Made by a program: the position numbers and the translations under genes. Below, in pieces: positions 1 to 25,335 of a stretch of 28,908 nt of DNA (within the stretch, counting starts at the first letter, position 1; each line of letters opens with the position of its first letter). Source of the DNA: a virus; the IMG/VR virus record IMGVR_UViG_3300025168_000454, positions 1 through 28,908 of that record; one strand, 5' to 3'. The notes beneath the pieces were generated by a model. The model saw nothing but the letters and a program-made list of their open reading frames with translations, did not search any database and was not told where the DNA came from.

Positions 1-282
1 TGGTTAAATCATCCTGCAGTTCTAATGTGGGATGGCTATGTAGATGCGTTACTGCTCTACAAAAACAAGATGATAGAAGAGTGGCTTAATAGAGGATATA
101 GGAATACTATGGAATGGGTAATACTACCTACATCTATAGAGATGCCACATTGGTTAGGTGATAATAGAATACATGCTTCTCATAGAAGTAATCTACTTAG
201 AAAAGACATAGACTTTTATAGTAGGTATGATTGGAAAGAGCCTATAGATATGGAGTACTACTGGGCTGTAGATAATGACTAA
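1..282 (+). CDS. MSMEG_6728 / pyrimidine dimer DNA glycosylase-like protein (3' part)
   Basis: The reading frame is open from base 1, so the gene starts outside the window and only the last 93 codons are seen. The visible part has HPAVLMWDGYVDAL, a basic WLNRGYRN segment, then HASHRSNLLRKD and an aromatic end YYWAV. This order (HPA, Arg-Gly-Tyr, SHRSNLLRK, Tyr-x-Trp) is characteristic of the MSMEG_6728 family, usually annotated as related to pyrimidine-dimer DNA glycosylase / T4 endonuclease V. In that family the protein would excise UV dimers or other damaged bases. The N-terminal residues needed for catalysis are outside the window, so activity cannot be judged. The next small gene overlaps its end by 8 bases. 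Confidence 0.7.
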   Translation, partial: WLNHPAVLMWDGYVDALLLYKNKMIEEWLNRGYRNTMEWVILPTSIEMPHWLGDNRIHASHRSNLLRKDIDFYSRYDWKEPIDMEYYWAVDND

Positions 283-450: not shown

Positions 451-597
451 ATGCGAGAGATACTTTATCACCTCTTAGGTTTTTGTGGAGAAGGTCATAT
501 TAGTATAATGACATTGTTCTACACAGGAGTTATTGTAGTTTATAGAGATTTTCTACTAACTATATTTAGAGGAGTAAAAAATGTACTATTCAAATGA
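451..597 (+). CDS. small hydrophobic hypothetical protein, 48 aa
   Basis: The frame is open from a TTG at 406, but the ATG at 451 is preceded by aggaga five bases upstream, so I take 451 as the start. The product (MREILYHLLGFCGEG...) has a hydrophobic run, roughly residues 18-40, which may be a single membrane segment, and a basic C-terminus. It overlaps the start of the first amidoligase gene by 17 bases, so it may be translated with it. No family is recognised. Confidence 0.5.
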   Translation: MREILYHLLGFCGEGHISIMTLFYTGVIVVYRDFLLTIFRGVKNVLFK

Positions 598-2419
598 GGT
601 GTTCTTACATAATACTTCTTATGCTAGGTACATAGATTCAGATGTAGAGTCTTTTAATGAACTAGACCTAAGAGGAGTAGCTACGGGGTATGGTATTGAT
701 GATTATCAAGATAGGTATAAGGTTAGAAGAGAAGACCTAGTCTCTGTAAATAGTAGAGTATTTAAGATAGTTAATGTATTAAAAGTAGATGAAAAATACT
801 TAGAAAAACATCCTTACCCACTTGGAGTTATAATACAAAAAGGTTCTACTAAGATAATATGTAGAGCAGTAGATTTGCTATATAATCATCATAATTTAGT
901 AAGTCTAGTAGGCTCTTCAATAAAGAGGAACAGTTCTAGAATATTTCTTCCTCCTACAGATACTTATACTCAGCATTTTAGAGACCTGTCTAGTCTAGGT
1001 GACTTTCTTAATGAGATAGGCAATAGAAGAAGAGCAGATACAGTAGAGATACATGCAAGGCTACAAGAAGGCACTCTATTAAATGATTCAGATTATAGAG
1101 TTCGTTCTAGAAAAGATTATAATAGAATGATTCTCAACTCTAGCTATACGCTTAGAGAAGTGATATCTCACTCTAGAAGTAGAATGGCTAGGTATAAAAT
1201 ATGTTCTCATTGTAATCAAGTAGATACTCAACTTGTACACATACAAGAAAATACTGAAGTATGTATCTACTGTTATAGACATGGAGAAGCTAAATGCGAG
1301 ATATGCGAATGTAGTAAAAGTCTCGATACATTAAAGTATATACAATTAGATGTAAATAGTATATCAAATAATATAATAGAAGGTATGGGTGTAGAAGTAT
1401 GTTGCTCTAATTGTTATTCTAGTAGTTATAATTATTGTAGTAGGTGTAAAAAAGTAGAAGTAATTAACTTAGATAAACTTAGAAGCCTTAATTCTTTAGA
1501 AGAAAAAACACAGTACTTGAGATATAATAGAACAGAATCTATTACATTCTTTGATATACGTGGAAGTAACTACTGTACTCCTTGCGGTACTCAAGTTATA
1601 TCAGATGTATTAAGTAATCCAATTAGAGGTATATCATTACCTAATAGAGTATCTATAAATAGCCTATTTAATAGGTTTGTAGGTATAGAAAGTGAAGTAA
1701 TGACTTATTATGATGATACAGATAGTTATATAGAAGATGGAATGATTCCTAGATATTTTGAAGCAGTACATGATGGCTCTCTAAGTGATGCAGGAGTAGA
1801 GCTTAGAACTATAAATCCAATTATAGGTAAACAAGTAGATACTGCTTTAGAGTCTCTACAACAATGTAACGATGCAGAAGATAATTTTATAGATGATAGT
1901 TGTGGTCTACATATACACTTAAACGCAGTAGATTTTGGGTTTATAGAATTAAAATCTCTACTACTTATAATGTCTAGAATACAAGATTTAATATATGATA
2001 GTATACCAAATAATAGGATAGATAGTACTTATGCAAGACCTATAAGTTTATCTACTAAGGAAATATCTAAAATAGAATCTCTACCTATGTTATTAAGTAA
2101 GTATTATAATATGGTAGGAGGTGATTTTGATGGAGAAAAATATAATGAAGGTAGATATATAGGTACTAATTTACACGCTAGATTTTACTTAGGTACTGTA
2201 GAATTTAGATACCATGAGGGTACTATAGATTCAGAGTCTATAAAAAAATGGATTATGTTTCTTAATAGTATTATGAGTTCATCTACTACATTAGTAAAGA
2301 ACCCTAAATTATATAACAAGATTTTATCTAATAAGTCCTCTACTATTGATGTAGTTAGAGATGTAGTAGGACTACGTAATACGGAGTACTTAGAAAGTAA
2401 AATACAAACAAACGAATAA
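581..2419 (+). CDS. putative amidoligase (glutamine-synthetase-like fold) with internal zinc-ribbon region, 612 aa
   Basis: The C-terminal half carries the marks of the Amidoligase_2 family of ATP-dependent COOH-NH2 ligases: G368-I-E370-S-E372, then a DGSL...GVELRT segment, C441-G-L-H444-I-H446, and E541-F-R543 followed by a Gly-Thr pair. These match the metal/ATP-binding acidic and His positions of that family. Residues 208-244 have paired cysteines (208/211, 228/231, 239/242/244), and more CxxC pairs follow to about residue 340, forming several treble-clef or LIM-like ribbons. The first 200 residues match nothing I know. The start is set by agaggag ahead of ATG 581. The next gene is a class II glutamine amidotransferase, a plausible ammonia donor. 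The substrate is unknown: a peptide, protein tag, nucleotide or cell-wall precursor are all possible. Confidence 0.8.
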   Translation: MYYSNEVFLHNTSYARYIDSDVESFNELDLRGVATGYGIDDYQDRYKVRREDLVSVNSRVFKIVNVLKVDEKYLEKHPYPLGVIIQKGSTKIICRAVDLLYNHHNLVSLVGSSIKRNSSRIFLPPTDTYTQHFRDLSSLGDFLNEIGNRRRADTVEIHARLQEGTLLNDSDYRVRSRKDYNRMILNSSYTLREVISHSRSRMARYKICSHCNQVDTQLVHIQENTEVCIYCYRHGEAKCEICECSKSLDTLKYIQLDVNSISNNIIEGMGVEVCCSNCYSSSYNYCSRCKKVEVINLDKLRSLNSLEEKTQYLRYNRTESITFFDIRGSNYCTPCGTQVISDVLSNPIRGISLPNRVSINSLFNRFVGIESEVMTYYDDTDSYIEDGMIPRYFEAVHDGSLSDAGVELRTINPIIGKQVDTALESLQQCNDAEDNFIDDSCGLHIHLNAVDFGFIELKSLLLIMSRIQDLIYDSIPNNRIDSTYARPISLSTKEISKIESLPMLLSKYYNMVGGDFDGEKYNEGRYIGTNLHARFYLGTVEFRYHEGTIDSESIKKWIMFLNSIMSSSTTLVKNPKLYNKILSNKSSTIDVVRDVVGLRNTEYLESKIQTNE

Positions 2420-2436
2420 CAAAAGGAGAATAATAG

Positions 2437-3453
2437 ATGTGTGGTATATTTGGATTCGCTAAGAAAAGCGGACATCAAACAGATAATCAATTAGAGGTAC
2501 TCAAAAGAGTATTCACAGAACTAACTGATGAATCATCTATAAGAGGTATGGATAGTACAGGATTTTCTGTTATAAATCCATACAGTAGAAAAACAATAAA
2601 GACTCTAGTAGACTCTTCTTCATTAGTAGAGAGCACAGAGTGGGATAAAGTACTAGATGAGATAGACTCAACTACTACCATTGTCATGGGACACGTTAGA
2701 CTAGCTACTCACGGAGTAGTTAAGGTTACTAACGCTCACCCATTTGATATAGGTAAGGTAACTCTAGCTCATAATGGTATAATACATAACTACAATGAAG
2801 TAGCTAAATCACTAGGTAAGTCTGTTCCAGAAGTAGACTCCCAAGTTCTACTACAATGTCTTAATAAAAAAGATATGAGTAAGGCTTTCGAGGATATAGA
2901 TGGGGACTTTGCTATAACGTGGGTAAAAGAAGATAATAATTCTATTCACCTTGCTAGAGAGTCTGGTCGACCTATGGTTGTAGCTTATTGGAAGAAGGCT
3001 CGTGTTCTACTATGGGCATCTACTAAGGAGATTATGCAAGATGCTATGACTAGAGCTGGTATAATATTACCTATAAAAACTGTTCCTCAAGACTTTATCT
3101 TTACATACAATACAGAGAGGTTCGACAGTAGAGATAATAAGGACAAGACTCCGTTTCATACTATGAGTCAATGGAATAAGGTTAATGATTACTACGGATA
3201 TGGAGGTTCTTATGGAAACTATAGTAGAAGTTATTATGGTAAGAAGTATAATGCCTACAACCCTAGCCCCGCTAGTCAGAGCTTACTAGAAGAACCTAAG
3301 AAAGATATGTGTAATTACTGCTACGAGTATGTGCCTGTAGAAGAATTATATATAGATGCTTATAATAAAAGCCTGTGTTTAGATTGTGATTATATAGATA
3401 TAAGCTTTAAAGAACAAGGAGGTAAGAATGAAAGAGAAGAAGCTCCCTTCTAA
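2437..3453 (+). CDS. class II glutamine amidotransferase (Ntn hydrolase) with C-terminal zinc ribbon, 338 aa
   Basis: The protein starts Met-Cys2-Gly-Ile-Phe-Gly, so removal of Met exposes the Ntn nucleophile Cys2. Family motifs follow in order: RGMDSTG at 36-42, MGHVRLATHG at 84-93 (Arg that binds glutamine), NAHPF at 99-103, HNG at 112-114, and a later DSQVL and GDFA. This is the GlmS/PurF-type glutaminase domain that releases ammonia from glutamine. There is no sugar-isomerase or phosphoribosyltransferase domain; instead a Tyr/Gly-rich linker (about 240-265) leads to Cys292/295 and Cys314/317, a zinc ribbon like those in the two neighbouring amidoligases. ATG 2437 has aaaggag upstream. I infer that it feeds ammonia to one or both ligases. 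Confidence 0.88.
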   Translation: MCGIFGFAKKSGHQTDNQLEVLKRVFTELTDESSIRGMDSTGFSVINPYSRKTIKTLVDSSSLVESTEWDKVLDEIDSTTTIVMGHVRLATHGVVKVTNAHPFDIGKVTLAHNGIIHNYNEVAKSLGKSVPEVDSQVLLQCLNKKDMSKAFEDIDGDFAITWVKEDNNSIHLARESGRPMVVAYWKKARVLLWASTKEIMQDAMTRAGIILPIKTVPQDFIFTYNTERFDSRDNKDKTPFHTMSQWNKVNDYYGYGGSYGNYSRSYYGKKYNAYNPSPASQSLLEEPKKDMCNYCYEYVPVEELYIDAYNKSLCLDCDYIDISFKEQGGKNEREEAPF

Positions 3454-3742
3454 GAAGGTAATCTTAGTAGGTTTTGCTAATCCTATAAGATTAAAGTCTA
3501 AGAAATTTGTAATAGAGACTCTTTATAAAAGGGCTAAGAAAAATCCCTTCTTAAAAGATAAGTCCTATAGTGAATATGTAGATTTTTTATTAGAGCAGAT
3601 TGAATCATTAGGTTCAGAATCTGTAGATAAAAATTCTGATAACTTAGAGTCGGCTATATATGATAAGTTAAAAGAGATGAATTGGCTTAGAGTTATAAAT
3701 GCTTTTATAGTAGCGGTTATAACTACTGACATAGGAGTCTGA
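3428..3742 (+). CDS. hypothetical protein between amidotransferase and second amidoligase, 104 aa
   Basis: ATG 3428 lies inside the end of the amidotransferase gene (26-base overlap) behind the strong site aaggaggtaag. The product has a basic N-terminus (MKEKKLPSKKVILVGFANPI), an acidic/amphipathic middle and a hydrophobic C-terminus (INAFIVAVITTDIGV). I do not recognise it. The strong ribosome site and the position inside the ligase island suggest a small partner protein. Confidence 0.6.
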   Translation: MKEKKLPSKKVILVGFANPIRLKSKKFVIETLYKRAKKNPFLKDKSYSEYVDFLLEQIESLGSESVDKNSDNLESAIYDKLKEMNWLRVINAFIVAVITTDIGV

Positions 3743-3743
3743 T

Positions 3744-4889
3744 ATGTATACACAAACCCAAAGTACAGCAGTAGAAGTAGAGGTAAAAAAACATAAGTGT
3801 AATCTATGTGATGAGGTTATAGTAGGTAACTTAAAAGAATATGAAGGAGATAAGTTCTGTGAAGATTGTTATATAGAGAACTTCTTTTCATGTGATGCTT
3901 GTCACAATGTAAATGATAACGACTATCTTCATTATGCAGATGATAATTCATACTGCGAGGAGTGTTTCTGCGAGCATTATAGTACTTGTAATGATTGTGG
4001 AGAAGCTGTACATAATGATTGGGTTCATTGGCAAGATGATACACCATATTGCGAGTCTTGCTTACCAGATAATGACCTAGAGGAAGAATTTAGGTGTAAG
4101 AATATACCTAGTTCATCTATGAAGTCAGAGCATTTTGATTTACTAGATGTCAGAACACTAGTAGGTATAGAGATAGAATGTATGTATGAGAGCTATAGAG
4201 ATGTTTATACACCTTCTAATTGGAGTAGACAAAGTGATGGTTCTATAGATAGGGAAGATGAATATGATTCTGTAGAGCTTGTATCATATCCCGCTGATGG
4301 TAACTATTTATGGGAAACCATAAACAGTGCTATGAGATGGAGAGATAGGATGGGTGCCGTTGTTAATAGAAGTTGTGGTCTACATGTACATTTTAACTCC
4401 CTAGAGTTTAACGCTAGACAGGTAGCTATGATAGCCTTAGTATATAAAAAGTTTGAAAAGATGCTAAAGGGTATGATGCCTAAGTCTAGACAAGATTCTA
4501 ATTGGTGTCGTGATATGTCTCTAGATTACAGTGAGTTATTATCAATAAGAGAAGAGCAAGACTTAATAGATAGATATTATGAAATGATGGGCTCATATCC
4601 TAATACAGATAAGTATAATGATGCTAGGTATTGCGGTATTAATATACACTCTAGATATTTTCATGGTACAATAGAGTTTAGACTACATTCTGGAACTATA
4701 AATAGAGAGAAGATAACTAATTGGATTAAGATACTAAATAAAATAGTAGTTCTTGGACTAGAGATAAACACTTGGAGTAAAGATGAGGTAAGAAAGTGGA
4801 TAGATAAACCAGCAAATACCTTAATAGATTCAGTATTTGGTAGTGAATTATGTCACTACATAACCAAAAGAACAAGGAAGTTCTTTTAA
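3744..4889 (+). CDS. second putative amidoligase with three N-terminal zinc ribbons, 381 aa
   Basis: Residues 19-106 form three consecutive ribbons: Cys19/22-39/42, Cys50/53-71/74 and Cys82/85-103/106, each CxxC-x16 or x17-CxxC, LIM-like. The rest is an Amidoligase_2 core: G141-I-E143-I-E145, DGSI...VELVSYP, C211-G-L-H214-V-H216, and E311-F-R313 followed by HSGT. Every conserved motif of the family that I can locate is kept, so it looks catalytically competent. It resembles the C-terminal half of the 581-2419 product but is clearly diverged, and it lacks that protein's long N-terminus. ATG 3744 is preceded by ataggagtc. The pair around a glutaminase suggests two successive or alternative ligations. 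Substrate unknown. Confidence 0.82.
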   Translation: MYTQTQSTAVEVEVKKHKCNLCDEVIVGNLKEYEGDKFCEDCYIENFFSCDACHNVNDNDYLHYADDNSYCEECFCEHYSTCNDCGEAVHNDWVHWQDDTPYCESCLPDNDLEEEFRCKNIPSSSMKSEHFDLLDVRTLVGIEIECMYESYRDVYTPSNWSRQSDGSIDREDEYDSVELVSYPADGNYLWETINSAMRWRDRMGAVVNRSCGLHVHFNSLEFNARQVAMIALVYKKFEKMLKGMMPKSRQDSNWCRDMSLDYSELLSIREEQDLIDRYYEMMGSYPNTDKYNDARYCGINIHSRYFHGTIEFRLHSGTINREKITNWIKILNKIVVLGLEINTWSKDEVRKWIDKPANTLIDSVFGSELCHYITKRTRKFF

Positions 4890-4902
4890 AAGGAGAGAAA
4901 CA

Positions 4903-5100
4903 ATGATAGATAAGTACAAAATAATAACAGTTAAACTAGCAGTATATAACGACCAAACTAGAAAAGATTGGCTCAATAGAAAGCTAGATATAAAAGAACA
5001 CGTAGAAAAAGAGATGGGATATTTAGAGGATAGTGGAATATACTTGGATGAGATAGTTAGTGTAGATAAAGAAGAGGAACTAGATTATGGGAAGAGTTAA
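4903..5100 (+). CDS. small hypothetical protein, 65 aa
   Basis: It starts 13 bases after the second amidoligase with aaaaggagag upstream of ATG 4903, so it belongs to the same operon. The product starts MIDKYKIITVKLAVYND and is acidic toward the C-terminus. No motif is recognised. Confidence 0.6.
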   Translation: MIDKYKIITVKLAVYNDQTRKDWLNRKLDIKEHVEKEMGYLEDSGIYLDEIVSVDKEEELDYGKS

Positions 5101-5257
5101 ATCATTAGTAACTGAGCTTGGCGTAGAAGGTGCGAGATTATTTTTACATAGCATGAAACATAAGTTAATTAAAAAAACCCCTTGTGCCATTAATCACAGC
5201 CTTTCTAAGTTAGAGGTACGTCAAAAGGAGAAAAACGATGCCATTAAGAGGTTTTAG
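5087..5257 (+). CDS. small basic hypothetical protein, 56 aa
   Basis: ATG 5087 overlaps the previous gene by 14 bases, with gaggaac upstream; the frame runs to TAG at 5255-5257 and overlaps the exonuclease gene by 20 bases. The product (MGRVKSLVTELGVEGARLFL...) is basic and probably helical. It fills the only stretch (5101-5237) that would otherwise be empty between two tightly packed genes. Not recognised. Confidence 0.45.
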   Translation: MGRVKSLVTELGVEGARLFLHSMKHKLIKKTPCAINHSLSKLEVRQKEKNDAIKRF

Positions 5258-6113
5258 GTATCAAGATAAAAGCATAGTATCTATTGAGGATATTAGTAGA
5301 GGTAAAGTAGATGTAGAAAAGATGGGTGTATCTTTACCCACTCTACTACACATGTCAAATACTAGACCTAGTGATAGGAAGCCATCTACTACTGAGTTAC
5401 TAAATGGAACGTGCCAATCATATCTAGAGAGAACTGAGGACTACTACATATACCCAGAAGATAATGCTTTCGCACTAGCTGGAACTCTACATCACCTTAA
5501 ATTAGAAGAATCATCTGAAGGTGTTGATAGACTAGAGTCAGAGCTAACCCTAGAGAGTTTAGGTATTACAGGGACTGTAGACTTATATGATAAAGAAGCT
5601 AAGATGCTTGTAGATTACAAGTTTTCTGGCTCCTATAAGATAGCTAAATGTTTAGGTATTAAATCTAAGTACGCTCACCATCCTACTGAAGTTTACAAGA
5701 GAAGTGGTAGGTGGGGAAAGGCGGGCACTCCAAGAAGAGTAAAAGAGTTTTACATGGATAAGGAGACAGCAGACTTAGAAGATTGGGGATGGCAGTTAAA
5801 TTTCTATAGATACCTATTAGAACAAAATGGCTACCCAGTAGATAAGATGTTTATACAAGCTACAGTTAGGGATGCTGGATTGCAGATAGCTAGAGAGCGT
5901 GGTATAGAGAGGAATATATATATGGTAGAAGTACCATACATACATGATGAACATCTAGTATCTAGGTATATAAGTAAGAGAGATAAACTACTAATAGCTT
6001 TAGAAGAAAAAAAGTTACCAGAGGTATGTACTAAAGAAGAAACGTGGGGAGGTGTGAAGTGTAAATCATACTGCCCTGTAAGAGAGACATGCCCCTATAA
6101 CAAAGGAGAGTAG
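5238..6113 (+). CDS. RecB/Cas4-like PD-(D/E)XK exonuclease with probable Fe-S cluster, 291 aa
   Basis: Nuclease motifs appear in family order: GTLHH (His86), GTVD (Asp115), D126-Y-K128 and Q186-xxx-Y190. Cysteines are placed as in Cas4/AddB-type Fe-S nucleases: Cys59 near the N-terminus (TCQSYLER) and Cys275/279/285 at the C-terminus (C-x3-C-x5-C), with Cys264 as a spare. Such proteins resect DNA ends to give single strands. The Rad52-like annealing protein and SSB-like protein downstream make a complete phage recombination set, analogous to lambda exo/beta. ATG 5238 is preceded by aaaaggag. There is no cas1 or cas2 nearby, so a CRISPR role is not suggested. Confidence 0.85.
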   Translation: MPLRGFRYQDKSIVSIEDISRGKVDVEKMGVSLPTLLHMSNTRPSDRKPSTTELLNGTCQSYLERTEDYYIYPEDNAFALAGTLHHLKLEESSEGVDRLESELTLESLGITGTVDLYDKEAKMLVDYKFSGSYKIAKCLGIKSKYAHHPTEVYKRSGRWGKAGTPRRVKEFYMDKETADLEDWGWQLNFYRYLLEQNGYPVDKMFIQATVRDAGLQIARERGIERNIYMVEVPYIHDEHLVSRYISKRDKLLIALEEKKLPEVCTKEETWGGVKCKSYCPVRETCPYNKGE

Positions 6114-6114
6114 A

Positions 6115-6327
6115 ATGATAACCGAACAAGATATTATATTTGATGAAATAAGTAACGAAGTGTATCTATATTTAGAAGAGTTTCGTGAATATATAGAAAT
6201 AAATATTGAAGATACTTTTCAAGTAAATAAAAGTTTAGCAAAGAAACTTCTAGATACTTGGATAGAAAACCATGATACACGAAATGATAAAAACGTAAAG
6301 GAGTGGAAACAAAATGATAAAAAATAG
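6115..6327 (+). CDS. small acidic hypothetical protein, 70 aa
   Basis: It starts one base after the exonuclease stop with aaaggaga upstream. The N-terminal half is strongly acidic (MITEQDIIFDEISNEVYLYL...) and the C-terminus is mixed charge. It overlaps the next gene by 14 bases. Not recognised. Confidence 0.6.
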   Translation: MITEQDIIFDEISNEVYLYLEEFREYIEINIEDTFQVNKSLAKKLLDTWIENHDTRNDKNVKEWKQNDKK

Positions 6328-6535
6328 TAGATGGACAATAAGAGAGGAAAAGAATGGAGTCATGTGGTGGATGATAAGAGGTGGTGCCTTTTCCAATAAG
6401 ACAAATGATAGATATCCGCATAGATTCTTTGAGACTAAAGAAGATGCAGAGATGTACTCTAATAGTATAAATAGAGTATCTGATAGAAAAAGTGAAATCA
6501 TAGAGGTTATTTATAAATATGCTAAAAGCAAATAA
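6314..6535 (+). CDS. small hypothetical protein, 73 aa
   Basis: ATG 6314 has aaaggag about nine bases upstream. The product (MIKNSRWTIREEKNGVMWWM...) has an aromatic N-terminal strand pattern followed by FETKEDAEMYSNSI, an arrangement seen in small phage domains of the 'beta strands plus KEEA helix' type. No specific family can be named. It overlaps both neighbours. Confidence 0.6.
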   Translation: MIKNSRWTIREEKNGVMWWMIRGGAFSNKTNDRYPHRFFETKEDAEMYSNSINRVSDRKSEIIEVIYKYAKSK

Positions 6536-6734
6536 GCCACCTAGGAGAATAGAGACATTAGAGTTTAGAGTAGAGCAAGTAGAAATGGCTTTAATGAATT
6601 TAATGATTGTTGTAGCTAACCAGAAAAAAGAGCTTCCAGATTTCAAGAAAAGTATGGATAGAGCAGAGAACATGGCTAAGGAAGATAGTAATATACTATC
6701 TATTCTTATGAATCAAGAAGGAGGTGATGCTTGA
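6519..6734 (+). CDS. small helical hypothetical protein, 71 aa
   Basis: It starts inside the end of the previous gene. The sequence is mostly helix-forming, with a heptad-like stretch (IETLEFRVEQVEMALMNLMI) that may be a short coiled coil. The last codons contain the ribosome site of the next gene. Not recognised. Confidence 0.55.
   Translation: MLKANKPPRRIETLEFRVEQVEMALMNLMIVVANQKKELPDFKKSMDRAENMAKEDSNILSILMNQEGGDA
6718..6728 (+). promoter_or_regulatory. near-perfect Shine-Dalgarno that sets a TTG start
   Basis: The bases aaggaggtgat are complementary to the 16S rRNA tail over their full length. They lie two bases before TTG 6731, or about five if measured from ggagg, which makes TTG the likely start for the next gene, as no ATG is available nearby. 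Confidence 0.65.
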
Positions 6735-6928
6735 AGAAAGGAAACAATAAAGAAATAATATCCTTAATAGAAAGTAGACTAGAAAAGGGTAAGAGAGAAT
6801 ATAACCAAGAAGTAGATGTTCATGATGGTAGAGAGTGGATGAACGAAGCACTAGAAGAGTTACTAGATGCTTGTGTGTACCTATCAGCACAGATACTTTT
6901 ATTAAAAAAGAGAGGTGTTAATGAGTGA
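6731..6928 (+). CDS. small MazG-like (all-alpha NTP pyrophosphatase-like) protein, 65 aa
   Basis: The TTG start is chosen because of the very strong ribosome site just upstream. The pattern RLEKGKREYNQEVDVHDGRE then EALEELLDACVYLSAQI resembles short phage MazG-like proteins, in which an ExxE...D helix binds Mg and nucleotide. It is shorter than classical MazG (about 100 residues), with only one such helix visible, so it may act as a multimer or may not be a hydrolase. It overlaps the annealing-protein gene by 8 bases. Confidence 0.5.
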   Translation: MKKGNNKEIISLIESRLEKGKREYNQEVDVHDGREWMNEALEELLDACVYLSAQILLLKKRGVNE

Positions 6929-7535
6929 TAAAGTGTTAAAAGTAGAAGACTCTATTGTAGAGTCATCTGGTTTTGATGTAATAAGAGACCTACATATAAC
7001 TGTATCTAATGAAGATACACCTAAATCCTTTGTTAAGAATAAGATGGGTACTGACTACGTAGAGTATTCTTATATGAGGAAGATAGCAGATAAACATTTT
7101 CCGGGCTGGTCTTGGACTATAATGAAAACAGAGATGCTAGGAAGTGAAGCGTTTATGGTTCATGGTAGACTAAGGTGGTTTGATGGTGGTTTGTGGAGAG
7201 AAGGAGACTCTACTGCGGCTCATAGGATAATGCAAAAGAGAGATGGAAGTGGGTTTGTAGATGTAGGTAATGACATAAAGTCAGCAAATACAGATTGCAT
7301 AAAGAAAGCTTTCAATATGTATCTGAATATAGCAGATGATGTGTATAGAAATAGAGTTCCAGACACAGAACTTACCCAAGAAGATATAGATTATCTATAT
7401 AAAGAAATGGAAGGGTTAGATGATGAATGGAAAGAAAAGATATCGCTCTCTATAGAAGGTGGGAGTGTTGAGAAGAGTGATATGAGTAAAGTAGTAACTA
7501 GAATAAATCAAATAAAGGAAGAAATGAATGAGTAA
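6921..7535 (+). CDS. Rad52-like single-strand annealing protein, 204 aa
   Basis: I use ATG 6921 (agagaggtg upstream) rather than GTG 6915. Residues about 45-145 read like the Rad52/Rad22 annealing domain: YVEYSYMRKIADKHFPG, a beta-rich middle (GSEAFMVHGRLRWF), and DIKSANTDCIKKAFNMY near 118-134, matching the family's Ser-x-x-Thr-Asp-x-x-Lys-Lys-Ala helix. The C-terminus is acidic/basic and probably flexible. Such proteins anneal complementary strands. It follows the exonuclease and precedes the SSB-like gene. A Sak/Erf-type assignment is the main alternative. Confidence 0.72.
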   Translation: MSDKVLKVEDSIVESSGFDVIRDLHITVSNEDTPKSFVKNKMGTDYVEYSYMRKIADKHFPGWSWTIMKTEMLGSEAFMVHGRLRWFDGGLWREGDSTAAHRIMQKRDGSGFVDVGNDIKSANTDCIKKAFNMYLNIADDVYRNRVPDTELTQEDIDYLYKEMEGLDDEWKEKISLSIEGGSVEKSDMSKVVTRINQIKEEMNE

Positions 7536-8100
7536 TTCTATTGATAGTGTATTAGGTAATGTTATGGGTGGAGAGTCTTATTATGACCCATCACAAGATA
7601 AGCCTAATGTAATAGTACCAGAGGGTGAGTTCTATGCTCACGTAAAAGACTACACAGTTAAGGAAGATGTAGTTATAAGAGGTAAGTACCTAGCTGACAT
7701 ATATAACCTAAACTTTAAACTAGCTGAGGAAAATTCAGATAAAACGTTTGGAGATATGAGCGGTTCTGTATTTGTAGGTAAGATGGTTAGGTCTAAGGGT
7801 TTGTTTAGGTTTAAGACTCCAGATAGTAAAAACCTAGAGCCAAACTCTGGTGGAAATAGGGAGTTTAAAGAAGTCCTTGAATCTATTGGTATAAAACCAG
7901 AAGAGAAAGAAGTTGATGGAAATGTAGTCTATGCACTACCAATATTAACTCCATCTAACTGTGAAGGAGCTCCAGCTATTATACGTATCAAGCATGAGAC
8001 TTGGACTAATAGAGATGGAGAAGAAGTAGTATCTCCTAAGGCTAATGGTATATTTTCTTGGAGTAATGGCAAGAAAGATGTATCGGATATGCCATTCTAG
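7528..8100 (+). CDS. SSB-like single-stranded DNA-binding protein, 190 aa
   Basis: The first residues are disordered and acidic/polar; a beta-rich core follows (EGEFYAHVKDYTVKEDVVI..., AIIRIKHETWTNRDGEEVV), consistent with an OB-like fold. The protein ends DVSDMPF, the acidic-Phe tail used by SSBs to recruit partners. It sits directly after the annealing protein, where phages often place an SSB. No individual DNA-contact motif can be proven by eye. It overlaps the previous gene by 8 bases. Confidence 0.65.
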   Translation: MSNSIDSVLGNVMGGESYYDPSQDKPNVIVPEGEFYAHVKDYTVKEDVVIRGKYLADIYNLNFKLAEENSDKTFGDMSGSVFVGKMVRSKGLFRFKTPDSKNLEPNSGGNREFKEVLESIGIKPEEKEVDGNVVYALPILTPSNCEGAPAIIRIKHETWTNRDGEEVVSPKANGIFSWSNGKKDVSDMPF

Positions 8101-24538: not shown

Positions 24539-24955
24539 TTATTCACCACTTAATTCTGGTGGTGTTGTTTGGGTATCTCCACCAACCTGTTTAGCTACAA
24601 ATTTTATATTACCAACAGCACTACCAATAACTAAGTCATTACTCGTTCCGGGATGCTTAGTGTCTGTTATTACGTAATCACTATCTCTACTTTGGTCAGA
24701 CTCAAAGTAAAACAATCCGTAACCACCTGAGCCCGTTATATTTGCAGTTCTATTTACTAAGTACTCAGCTAAATCAGTTGAACCATCAGAGCCCTCAACG
24801 TGATTATATAACCCACCGGCAGTCTTAATTTTACCAAGAGAATCTATTGACATGTTTTGGATAAGAGAAAACTCATTATCATTTATATCCCGTGGGTCTT
24901 TTCTATTATTAGAACCACCAGACCAATCCCTAATTATATAAAAACGTTTTGGCAT
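24539..24955 (-). CDS. N-terminal part of the split tail nozzle protein, 138 aa
   Basis: It opens with RDWSGGSNNRKDPRDINDNE then FSLIQNMSIDSLGKIKTAGG, the classical N-terminus of P22 gp10-like proteins, followed by a piece equivalent to the first blade (GYGLFYFESDQ). The stop is followed three bases later by the ATG of the 994-residue protein. I read the two as one functional unit divided in two genes. TAATG links it to the endolysin gene upstream. Confidence 0.65.
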   Translation of the reverse strand: MPKRFYIIRDWSGGSNNRKDPRDINDNEFSLIQNMSIDSLGKIKTAGGLYNHVEGSDGSTDLAEYLVNRTANITGSGGYGLFYFESDQSRDSDYVITDTKHPGTSNDLVIGSAVGNIKFVAKQVGGDTQTTPPELSGE

Positions 24956-25335
24956 TAGTCACGTATCTCTATATGAACTAGGTCATCAAACCCATTATCT
25001 TTTACATCGCCATCTGAGTCCCAGTCTCCACCCCATCTTACTTTAACTCCAAGCTGTTTAGCGATACCACGAATCATTCCACCCATATAGTGAAATCCAT
25101 CTCTGTTTTCCCAATCTATTGGGTAGGGAGCTAGGTCTACAGCCTTTCCTTCCATATGCTTAGAGTACTTAACCTTTGTAGCCCCCTTAGCCAACAGCGA
25201 CTTCTGTCTTTCTTCACTACGCAATCCTTCGATTATAGTAACATCCATAATCTTGATAAGTTCATTTAAGACATTAACTAGTTTAGTGTCAACACCCTTT
25301 AATCTTTCTTTACTTTTTCTGCCGAATCTGGGCAT
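24955..25335 (-). CDS. M15-family peptidase endolysin (L-Ala-D-Glu / VanY-like), 126 aa
   Basis: Zinc ligands and catalytic residues are in place: SKHMEGKAVDLAP (His60, Asp67) and DDLVHIEI (Asp118 as base, His121), with the aromatic GGDWDSDGD before it. This is the layout of the phage T5 endolysin and the VanY/M15C group. It would cut peptide stems of peptidoglycan to lyse the host. There is no cell-wall-binding domain or signal peptide, so it likely needs a holin; candidates lie just upstream at 26190-26656. Confidence 0.9.
   Translation of the reverse strand: MPRFGRKSKERLKGVDTKLVNVLNELIKIMDVTIIEGLRSEERQKSLLAKGATKVKYSKHMEGKAVDLAPYPIDWENRDGFHYMGGMIRGIAKQLGVKVRWGGDWDSDGDVKDNGFDDLVHIEIRD

Follow-up and report, generated by a model that had tools for sequence, protein, structure and literature searches.

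The window analysed here is the whole of a 28,908-nucleotide stretch (IMG/VR record IMGVR_UViG_3300025168_000454), a 28.9-kb piece of the genome of an uncultured tailed phage. On its plus strand, positions 581-4889 hold four closely packed genes in the order LIG1-GAT-S3428-LIG2. LIG1 (581..2419, 612 aa) ends 17 bases before the start of GAT (2437..3453, 338 aa), which is preceded by the Shine-Dalgarno sequence (SD) AGGAG; S3428 (3428..3742, 104 aa) overlaps the 3' end of GAT and has a strong SD, AGGAGG, ahead of its start; and LIG2 (3744..4889, 381 aa) starts 1 base past the S3428 stop. GAT, S3428, and LIG2 each have an SD of their own, and the GAT/S3428 and S3428/LIG2 pairs overlap or abut. 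A scan for promoter and terminator consensus sequences gave no signal above that of shuffled sequences; presumably the operon is co-expressed with the replication genes. A sequence-only reading of this DNA had placed two Amidoligase_2-type ligases around one class II glutaminase, and the Pfam profiles and the conserved motifs both agree with that assignment.

Both ligases exceed the curated cut-off of PF12224 (Amidoligase_2), which is 22 bits, with 76.5 bits (E 4e-21) for LIG1 and 102.4 bits (E 5e-29) for LIG2. The motifs GIE-x-E, CG-x-H-x-H, and E-[FY]-R-x-H..G occur in both, as GIESE, CGLHIH, and EFRYHEGT in LIG1 (catalytic domain at aa ~365-565) and as GIEIE, CGLHVH, and EFRLHSGT in LIG2, and they are invariant or nearly so among 18-19 homologues. 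LIG2 is composed of zinc fingers (aa ~18-110), which match LIM structures by profile, followed by the Amidoligase_2 domain. LIG1 begins with a fast-changing N-terminal domain of ~200 aa, which is followed by a cysteine-rich region of LIM-like zinc fingers (aa ~205-340) and the Amidoligase_2 domain. Since the two proteins align over the fingers and the catalytic domain (hhalign E 2e-75, 24% identity), LIG1 is, as judged from this alignment, a LIG2 paralogue that has an extra domain at its N-terminus. The catalytic domains were placed in a tree, where the LIG1 sequences form one group (support 84/94), consistent with a single origin of LIG1; the gene was apparently lost again at least once (L106). 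Pattern scans that used the single sequence of LIG1 or LIG2 retrieved no viral relatives, which GAT and profile queries did retrieve. In one related contig (G017, 39565-40123) LIG2 appears split over two reading frames, by a frameshift or a sequencing error, and LIG1 is intact.

The AlphaFold2 model of LIG1 has a predicted local distance difference test (pLDDT) score of 80.6, and its eight best PDB matches all belong to the glutamine synthetase (GS) superfamily, namely GshF (glutathione synthetase), the glutamine synthetases of human and yeast, and GmaS (gamma-glutamylmethylamide synthetase). Each match by itself is modest (E 0.003-0.12, with low template modelling scores over the whole chain), and the GS-like fold of LIG1, which had been set beforehand as a structural check, is for this reason supported rather than proven by the model.

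GAT matches the class II glutaminase families GATase_6/7/4 in Pfam (GATase_6 E 2e-18), its PDB relatives are GlmS/PurF/AsnB, and Cys2 is invariant in the alignment of its relatives. The glutaminase domain is followed by no synthase domain and only by a C-terminal CxxC...CxxC ribbon, which is invariant in the close lineage. The profile and the alignment thus bear out the free-standing N-terminal nucleophile glutaminase, with Cys2 and without a synthase domain, that had been recognised earlier. Zinc-finger cysteines, of which the earlier reading made no mention, are present in all three of LIG1, LIG2, and GAT.

S3428 has no significant match in Pfam, PHROGs, NCBIfam, PDB, BFVD, or the phage collection, and its AlphaFold2 model (pLDDT 72) gives nothing convincing against PDB and BFVD. 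In the scan with its profile, S3428 was found beside LIG2 only, in every locus retrieved. Its last codons (IGV-stop, ATAGGAGTC; window 3734-3744) hold the SD of LIG2, and homologous sites are found in ~30 loci. In distant relatives the LIG2 SD is displaced downstream, onto the S3428 stop codon and the bases right after it, and the end of the protein changes accordingly. Conservation of the S3428 C-terminus is therefore not evidence of a tag, because the same codons contain the LIG2 ribosome-binding site; a Pup- or ubiquitin-like carrier, suggested by the conserved C-terminal IGV, was rejected on this ground.

The arrangement of the operon is conserved across related phages. A scan with GAT gave 56 viral loci, in which gene order was counted where the flanking sequence was sufficient on both sides; the order LIG1-GAT-S3428-LIG2 was found in 43/43 loci of close relatives, with GAT identity down to ~39%, and the two other loci with enough flank (L057 and L058) are remote GAT matches. 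An independent survey was anchored on the exonuclease gene that neighbours the cassette (5238..6113, plus strand; PD-(D/E)XK, PF12705 E 2.5e-5) and covered the loci with >5 kb upstream (n=55). GAT and at least one ligase were present in all 55, which split into 35 full sets, 2 with GAT-S3428-LIG2, and 18, all distant, that pair GAT with a single long ligase. From this distribution the minimal unit is GAT plus LIG2, to which LIG1 is a later addition, and S3428 goes with LIG2. The neighbourhood is thus kept among the relatives, where its loss would have told against the earlier reading. Of the three-gene set described in that reading all three genes stand, and the unit is larger, a four-gene operon, as S3428 always lies between GAT and LIG2. 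The label of an 'island' was dropped because the operon is kept across the whole lineage, as a core operon in the replication module. Among the small genes that had been proposed as partners or carriers, the one at 3428 is an obligatory member, for which a carrier role is not supported, since its conserved C-terminus doubles as a ribosome-binding site; those at 4903 and ~451 occur in only some relatives.

Pairwise ratios of non-synonymous to synonymous substitution (dN/dS) are <1 in all four cassette genes and in the exonuclease, which indicates purifying selection. As dS is near saturation, only the ranking is meaningful: it is lowest for the exonuclease and S3428 and highest for LIG1, and both GAT and the exonuclease change more slowly than the ligases. 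The phage collection gave no homologue of the exonuclease or S3428 and only remote matches to TerL, and no isolate of the lineage was found there. One 64-kb contig (IMGVR_UViG_3300030101_002855; loci L015 and L033) is probably two phages joined in assembly, because it carries two different copies of the cassette.

Relatives of LIG2 also occur in cells. The LIG2 profile, run against bacterial and archaeal genomes, gave 80 loci. GAT is directly adjacent to 30/36 amidoligases with N-terminal zinc fingers, compared with 1/45 without fingers (Fisher p 4e-15, for related sequences that are not independent). The zinc fingers may therefore dock the ligase to the glutaminase or to a substrate that the two share. 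The neighbours of the bacterial relatives include serine resolvases, integrases, and relaxases, and in Omnitrophica type IV secretion system (T4SS) proteins and RadC, all of which are mobile-element genes. Like LIG2, the pairs of Omnitrophica (L201-L203) and Clostridia combine fingers with PF12224 and have GAT directly adjacent; unlike the window, they have the order LIG then GAT, lack both LIG1 and S3428, and sit among T4SS/RadC or resolvase/relaxase genes. In five loci of Clostridia (L233, L254, L272, L275, and L280) a serine resolvase of ~185-190 aa follows within ~130-215 bases of the amidoligase-GAT pair, which suggests a compact mobile module. Zinc-finger amidoligase-GAT pairs were seen in the Omnitrophica loci L201 and L203; that of L201 lies between RadC and T4SS genes, a setting like that of an integrative conjugative element.

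Around the cassette, an optional 65-aa gene (4903..5100, plus strand) lies on its 3' side, outside the core. The exonuclease has four invariant cysteines, possibly a Cas4/AddB-like iron-sulphur site; it is followed, in a conserved order behind the cassette (5238-8100), by two genes which are taken by position to be a recombination mediator and a single-stranded DNA-binding-like protein. At the start of the window (25-282) lies a gene fragment matching 'pyrimidine dimer DNA glycosylase' (PF03013), which is often found upstream of LIG1 in relatives. An M15_4 peptidase of the D-Ala-D-Ala type, a possible endolysin, is encoded on the minus strand (24955-25335). The M15 peptidase is present in 17/18 two-ligase phages and in 0/6 one-ligase phages; this correlation with LIG1 reflects one deep lineage split and carries no statistical weight. 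The relative G012 has, after its replication genes, a C5-cytosine methylase and a PAPS-reductase-like protein (L288:7092-8348 and L288:4813-5607), which are absent from the window.

Beyond the start of the window, the related phages share a further gene, which encodes GGACT, a gamma-glutamyl cyclotransferase. It occurs in each of the 24 related phage contigs, on the strand opposite to LIG1 and, where measured, ~6-8 kb upstream of it; in L281 and L284, the regions read, it directly neighbours TerL (the G012 copy is L281:7471-7854). According to papers that cite it, the study of Iyer et al. 2009 predicted phage cassettes in which GAT and Amidoligase_2 stand with a second GS-like ligase, ATP-grasp, and GGACT; such amidoligase-glutaminase cassettes are scattered over many phages. 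In RIO-1, tf, KZY1, QDWS535, and PSA-HP1, GAT is accompanied by PF12224, a PF14395-type ligase, and ATP-grasp, and most of these have GGACT annotated nearby. The earlier reading knew of no characterised phage pathway with its three-gene set; a lack of precedent is not supported, as comparable cassettes had been predicted by 2009 and carry annotations in phages such as RIO-1, LUZ24, and tf. The papers citing Iyer et al. 2009 mention the suggestion that the cassette modifies peptidoglycan and blocks superinfection; in the literature found, with Iyer et al. 2009 represented by its citing papers, no biochemical test of the chemistry of these cassettes was encountered. PF14395 was detected in 0/24 related contigs by a method which detected the copies of tf and KZY1 and missed the annotated copy of RIO-1. 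The ATP-grasp of the LUZ24 type (tf_24-type) was likewise detected in 0/24 related contigs, by a search that found it in tf, KZY1, and RIO-1; ATP-grasp families in general were absent from the relative G012, the other contigs having been searched for the tf_24-type only.

Class II glutaminases release ammonia, and GS-like ligases form acyl phosphates and add ammonia or amines. On the families and motifs described above, the operon probably encodes a glutamine-fed, amide-forming enzyme set. GAT would hydrolyse glutamine and free ammonia, and LIG2 and its paralogue LIG1 would spend ATP in activating a carboxylate and joining it to ammonia or to an amine derived from it, the products being either two kinds of amide bond or one kind made on each of two substrates. 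Glutaminase, ligase, and substrate would be kept together by the zinc fingers and, probably, by S3428. Delivery of ammonia to LIG2 (and LIG1) appears to be the simplest reading, because GAT has no fused synthase and its ligase partner is obligatory; GAT may form a complex with the ligase.

The substrate of the operon and its benefit to the phage are a guess. The likeliest target would be a host cell-envelope precursor peptide, such as the carboxylates of the peptidoglycan stem peptide, and an altered wall precursor would guard an infected cell against rival phages or against lysins. Given an amide-forming set, the host wall has about an even chance of being its target, on account of the presence of GGACT and of what has been proposed in print for the known cassettes; the M15 peptidase of these phages lends weak support. 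Several points weigh against this view. No wall-biosynthesis gene lies next to the cassette, and GGACT belongs to the packaging operon and not to the cassette. The wall-modification idea for the known cassettes is itself a hypothesis, for which the citing papers report no test. Because PF14395 and the LUZ24-type ATP-grasp were undetected, the product is not identical to that predicted for phiEco32 and LUZ24. The mobile-element neighbours of the bacterial relatives fit exclusion but also other conflict functions. The explanation as a whole, in which a glutamine-dependent amide-forming set acts on an envelope precursor and protects against competing phages or lysins, is therefore put forward tentatively, with somewhat less than an even chance of being correct.

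The same enzymes could act on other substrates. GS-like ligases such as PafA act on proteins and LIM-like fingers typically bind proteins, so that the ligases, whose fingers are LIM-like, might amidate a host or phage protein (e.g. transcription or translation factors) or conjugate glutamine-derived amines to it, with the fingers recognising the protein and the host being redirected. The faster evolution of the ligases would be compatible with an arms race; however, there is no Pup-like tail, the conserved S3428 C-terminus being accounted for by the LIG2 SD, no cassette protein matches the Pup_ligase family in Pfam, and protein modification seems unlikely overall. The constant presence of GGACT would suit a gamma-glutamyl or amidated metabolite that is trimmed by this enzyme, as in gamma-glutamyl protection of the butirosin type, and metabolite synthesis was proposed for the superfamily by Iyer et al. 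2009, according to a citing paper. Neither biosynthetic partners nor a transporter are seen in the relative G012, however, and with GGACT outside the operon a small-molecule product is judged quite unlikely.

The replication and recombination genes around the operon, the conjugation and recombinase genes near its relatives, and a DUF1599 'nucleotide modification associated' gene and the cytosine methylase in G012 would be in keeping with the amidation of a carboxylated base or nucleotide for evading restriction. Since G012 has no base carboxylase or hydroxylase, thymidylate synthase, or similar partner, this is regarded as very unlikely. Auxiliary nitrogen metabolism, in which glutamine nitrogen is moved into amino acids during infection, is the role proposed for a related gene set in phage ZRK32 (PMC10945688), but it would not call for a second ligase, zinc fingers, or S3428, and by sequence the ligases show no close kinship to glutamine or asparagine synthetases; it has the slightest probability of these explanations.

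Glutamine-fed amide synthesis directed at the wall thus remains the preferred explanation. The linkage of fingers and GAT in phages and in bacterial mobile elements points to a subfamily with a shared role in conflicts between mobile elements and hosts. It is possible, if somewhat doubtful, that the zinc-finger amidoligase, physically coupled to a glutaminase, is a tool common to phages and conjugative elements, which has here doubled into a four-protein machine that modifies a host or phage molecule with an amide not known from characterised pathways. The lineage offers a compact and strictly kept cassette in which one ligase is duplicated and S3428 is a new, obligatory partner; a minimal form (GAT and one ligase) also occurs naturally, and all this makes reconstitution practical.

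Glutaminases paired with ATP-dependent ligases are known from wall metabolism. Peptidoglycan amidases of the LtsA/AsnB type combine the two to amidate a carboxylate. The peptidoglycan amidase MurT-GatD likewise consists of a glutaminase and an ATP-dependent ligase (PMC3267633). Both have ligases of other folds, GAT has no fused synthase, and GAT is class II whereas GatD is class I. A known anti-phage defence system was considered for the operon and rejected, as no PADLOC profile matched at E 0.1. Arthrobacter phages Shrooms and Laroye and the marine phages MEP401/MEP402 encode PF12224 together with GAT, either adjacent to it or elsewhere in the genome; in Shrooms GGACT is beside the GAT-ligase pair, but the single ligase lacks zinc fingers and nothing like S3428 was seen. 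The cassettes of phiEco32, LUZ24, tf, RIO-1, and PSA-HP1 share with the window GAT, Amidoligase_2, and a second GS-like ligase among early or replication genes, together with a GGACT encoded in the genome. Their second ligase is PF14395, whereas here it is a duplicate zinc-finger PF12224; GGACT lies here outside the operon next to TerL, and the LUZ24-type ATP-grasp was not found. S3428, which was tried as a homologue of the protein between the ligases in LUZ24/RIO-1-type cassettes and gave no profile match, is new and unrelated to that protein. Therefore, the cassette is a version of a known phage kind, and what is new in it is the duplicated zinc-finger ligase and S3428.

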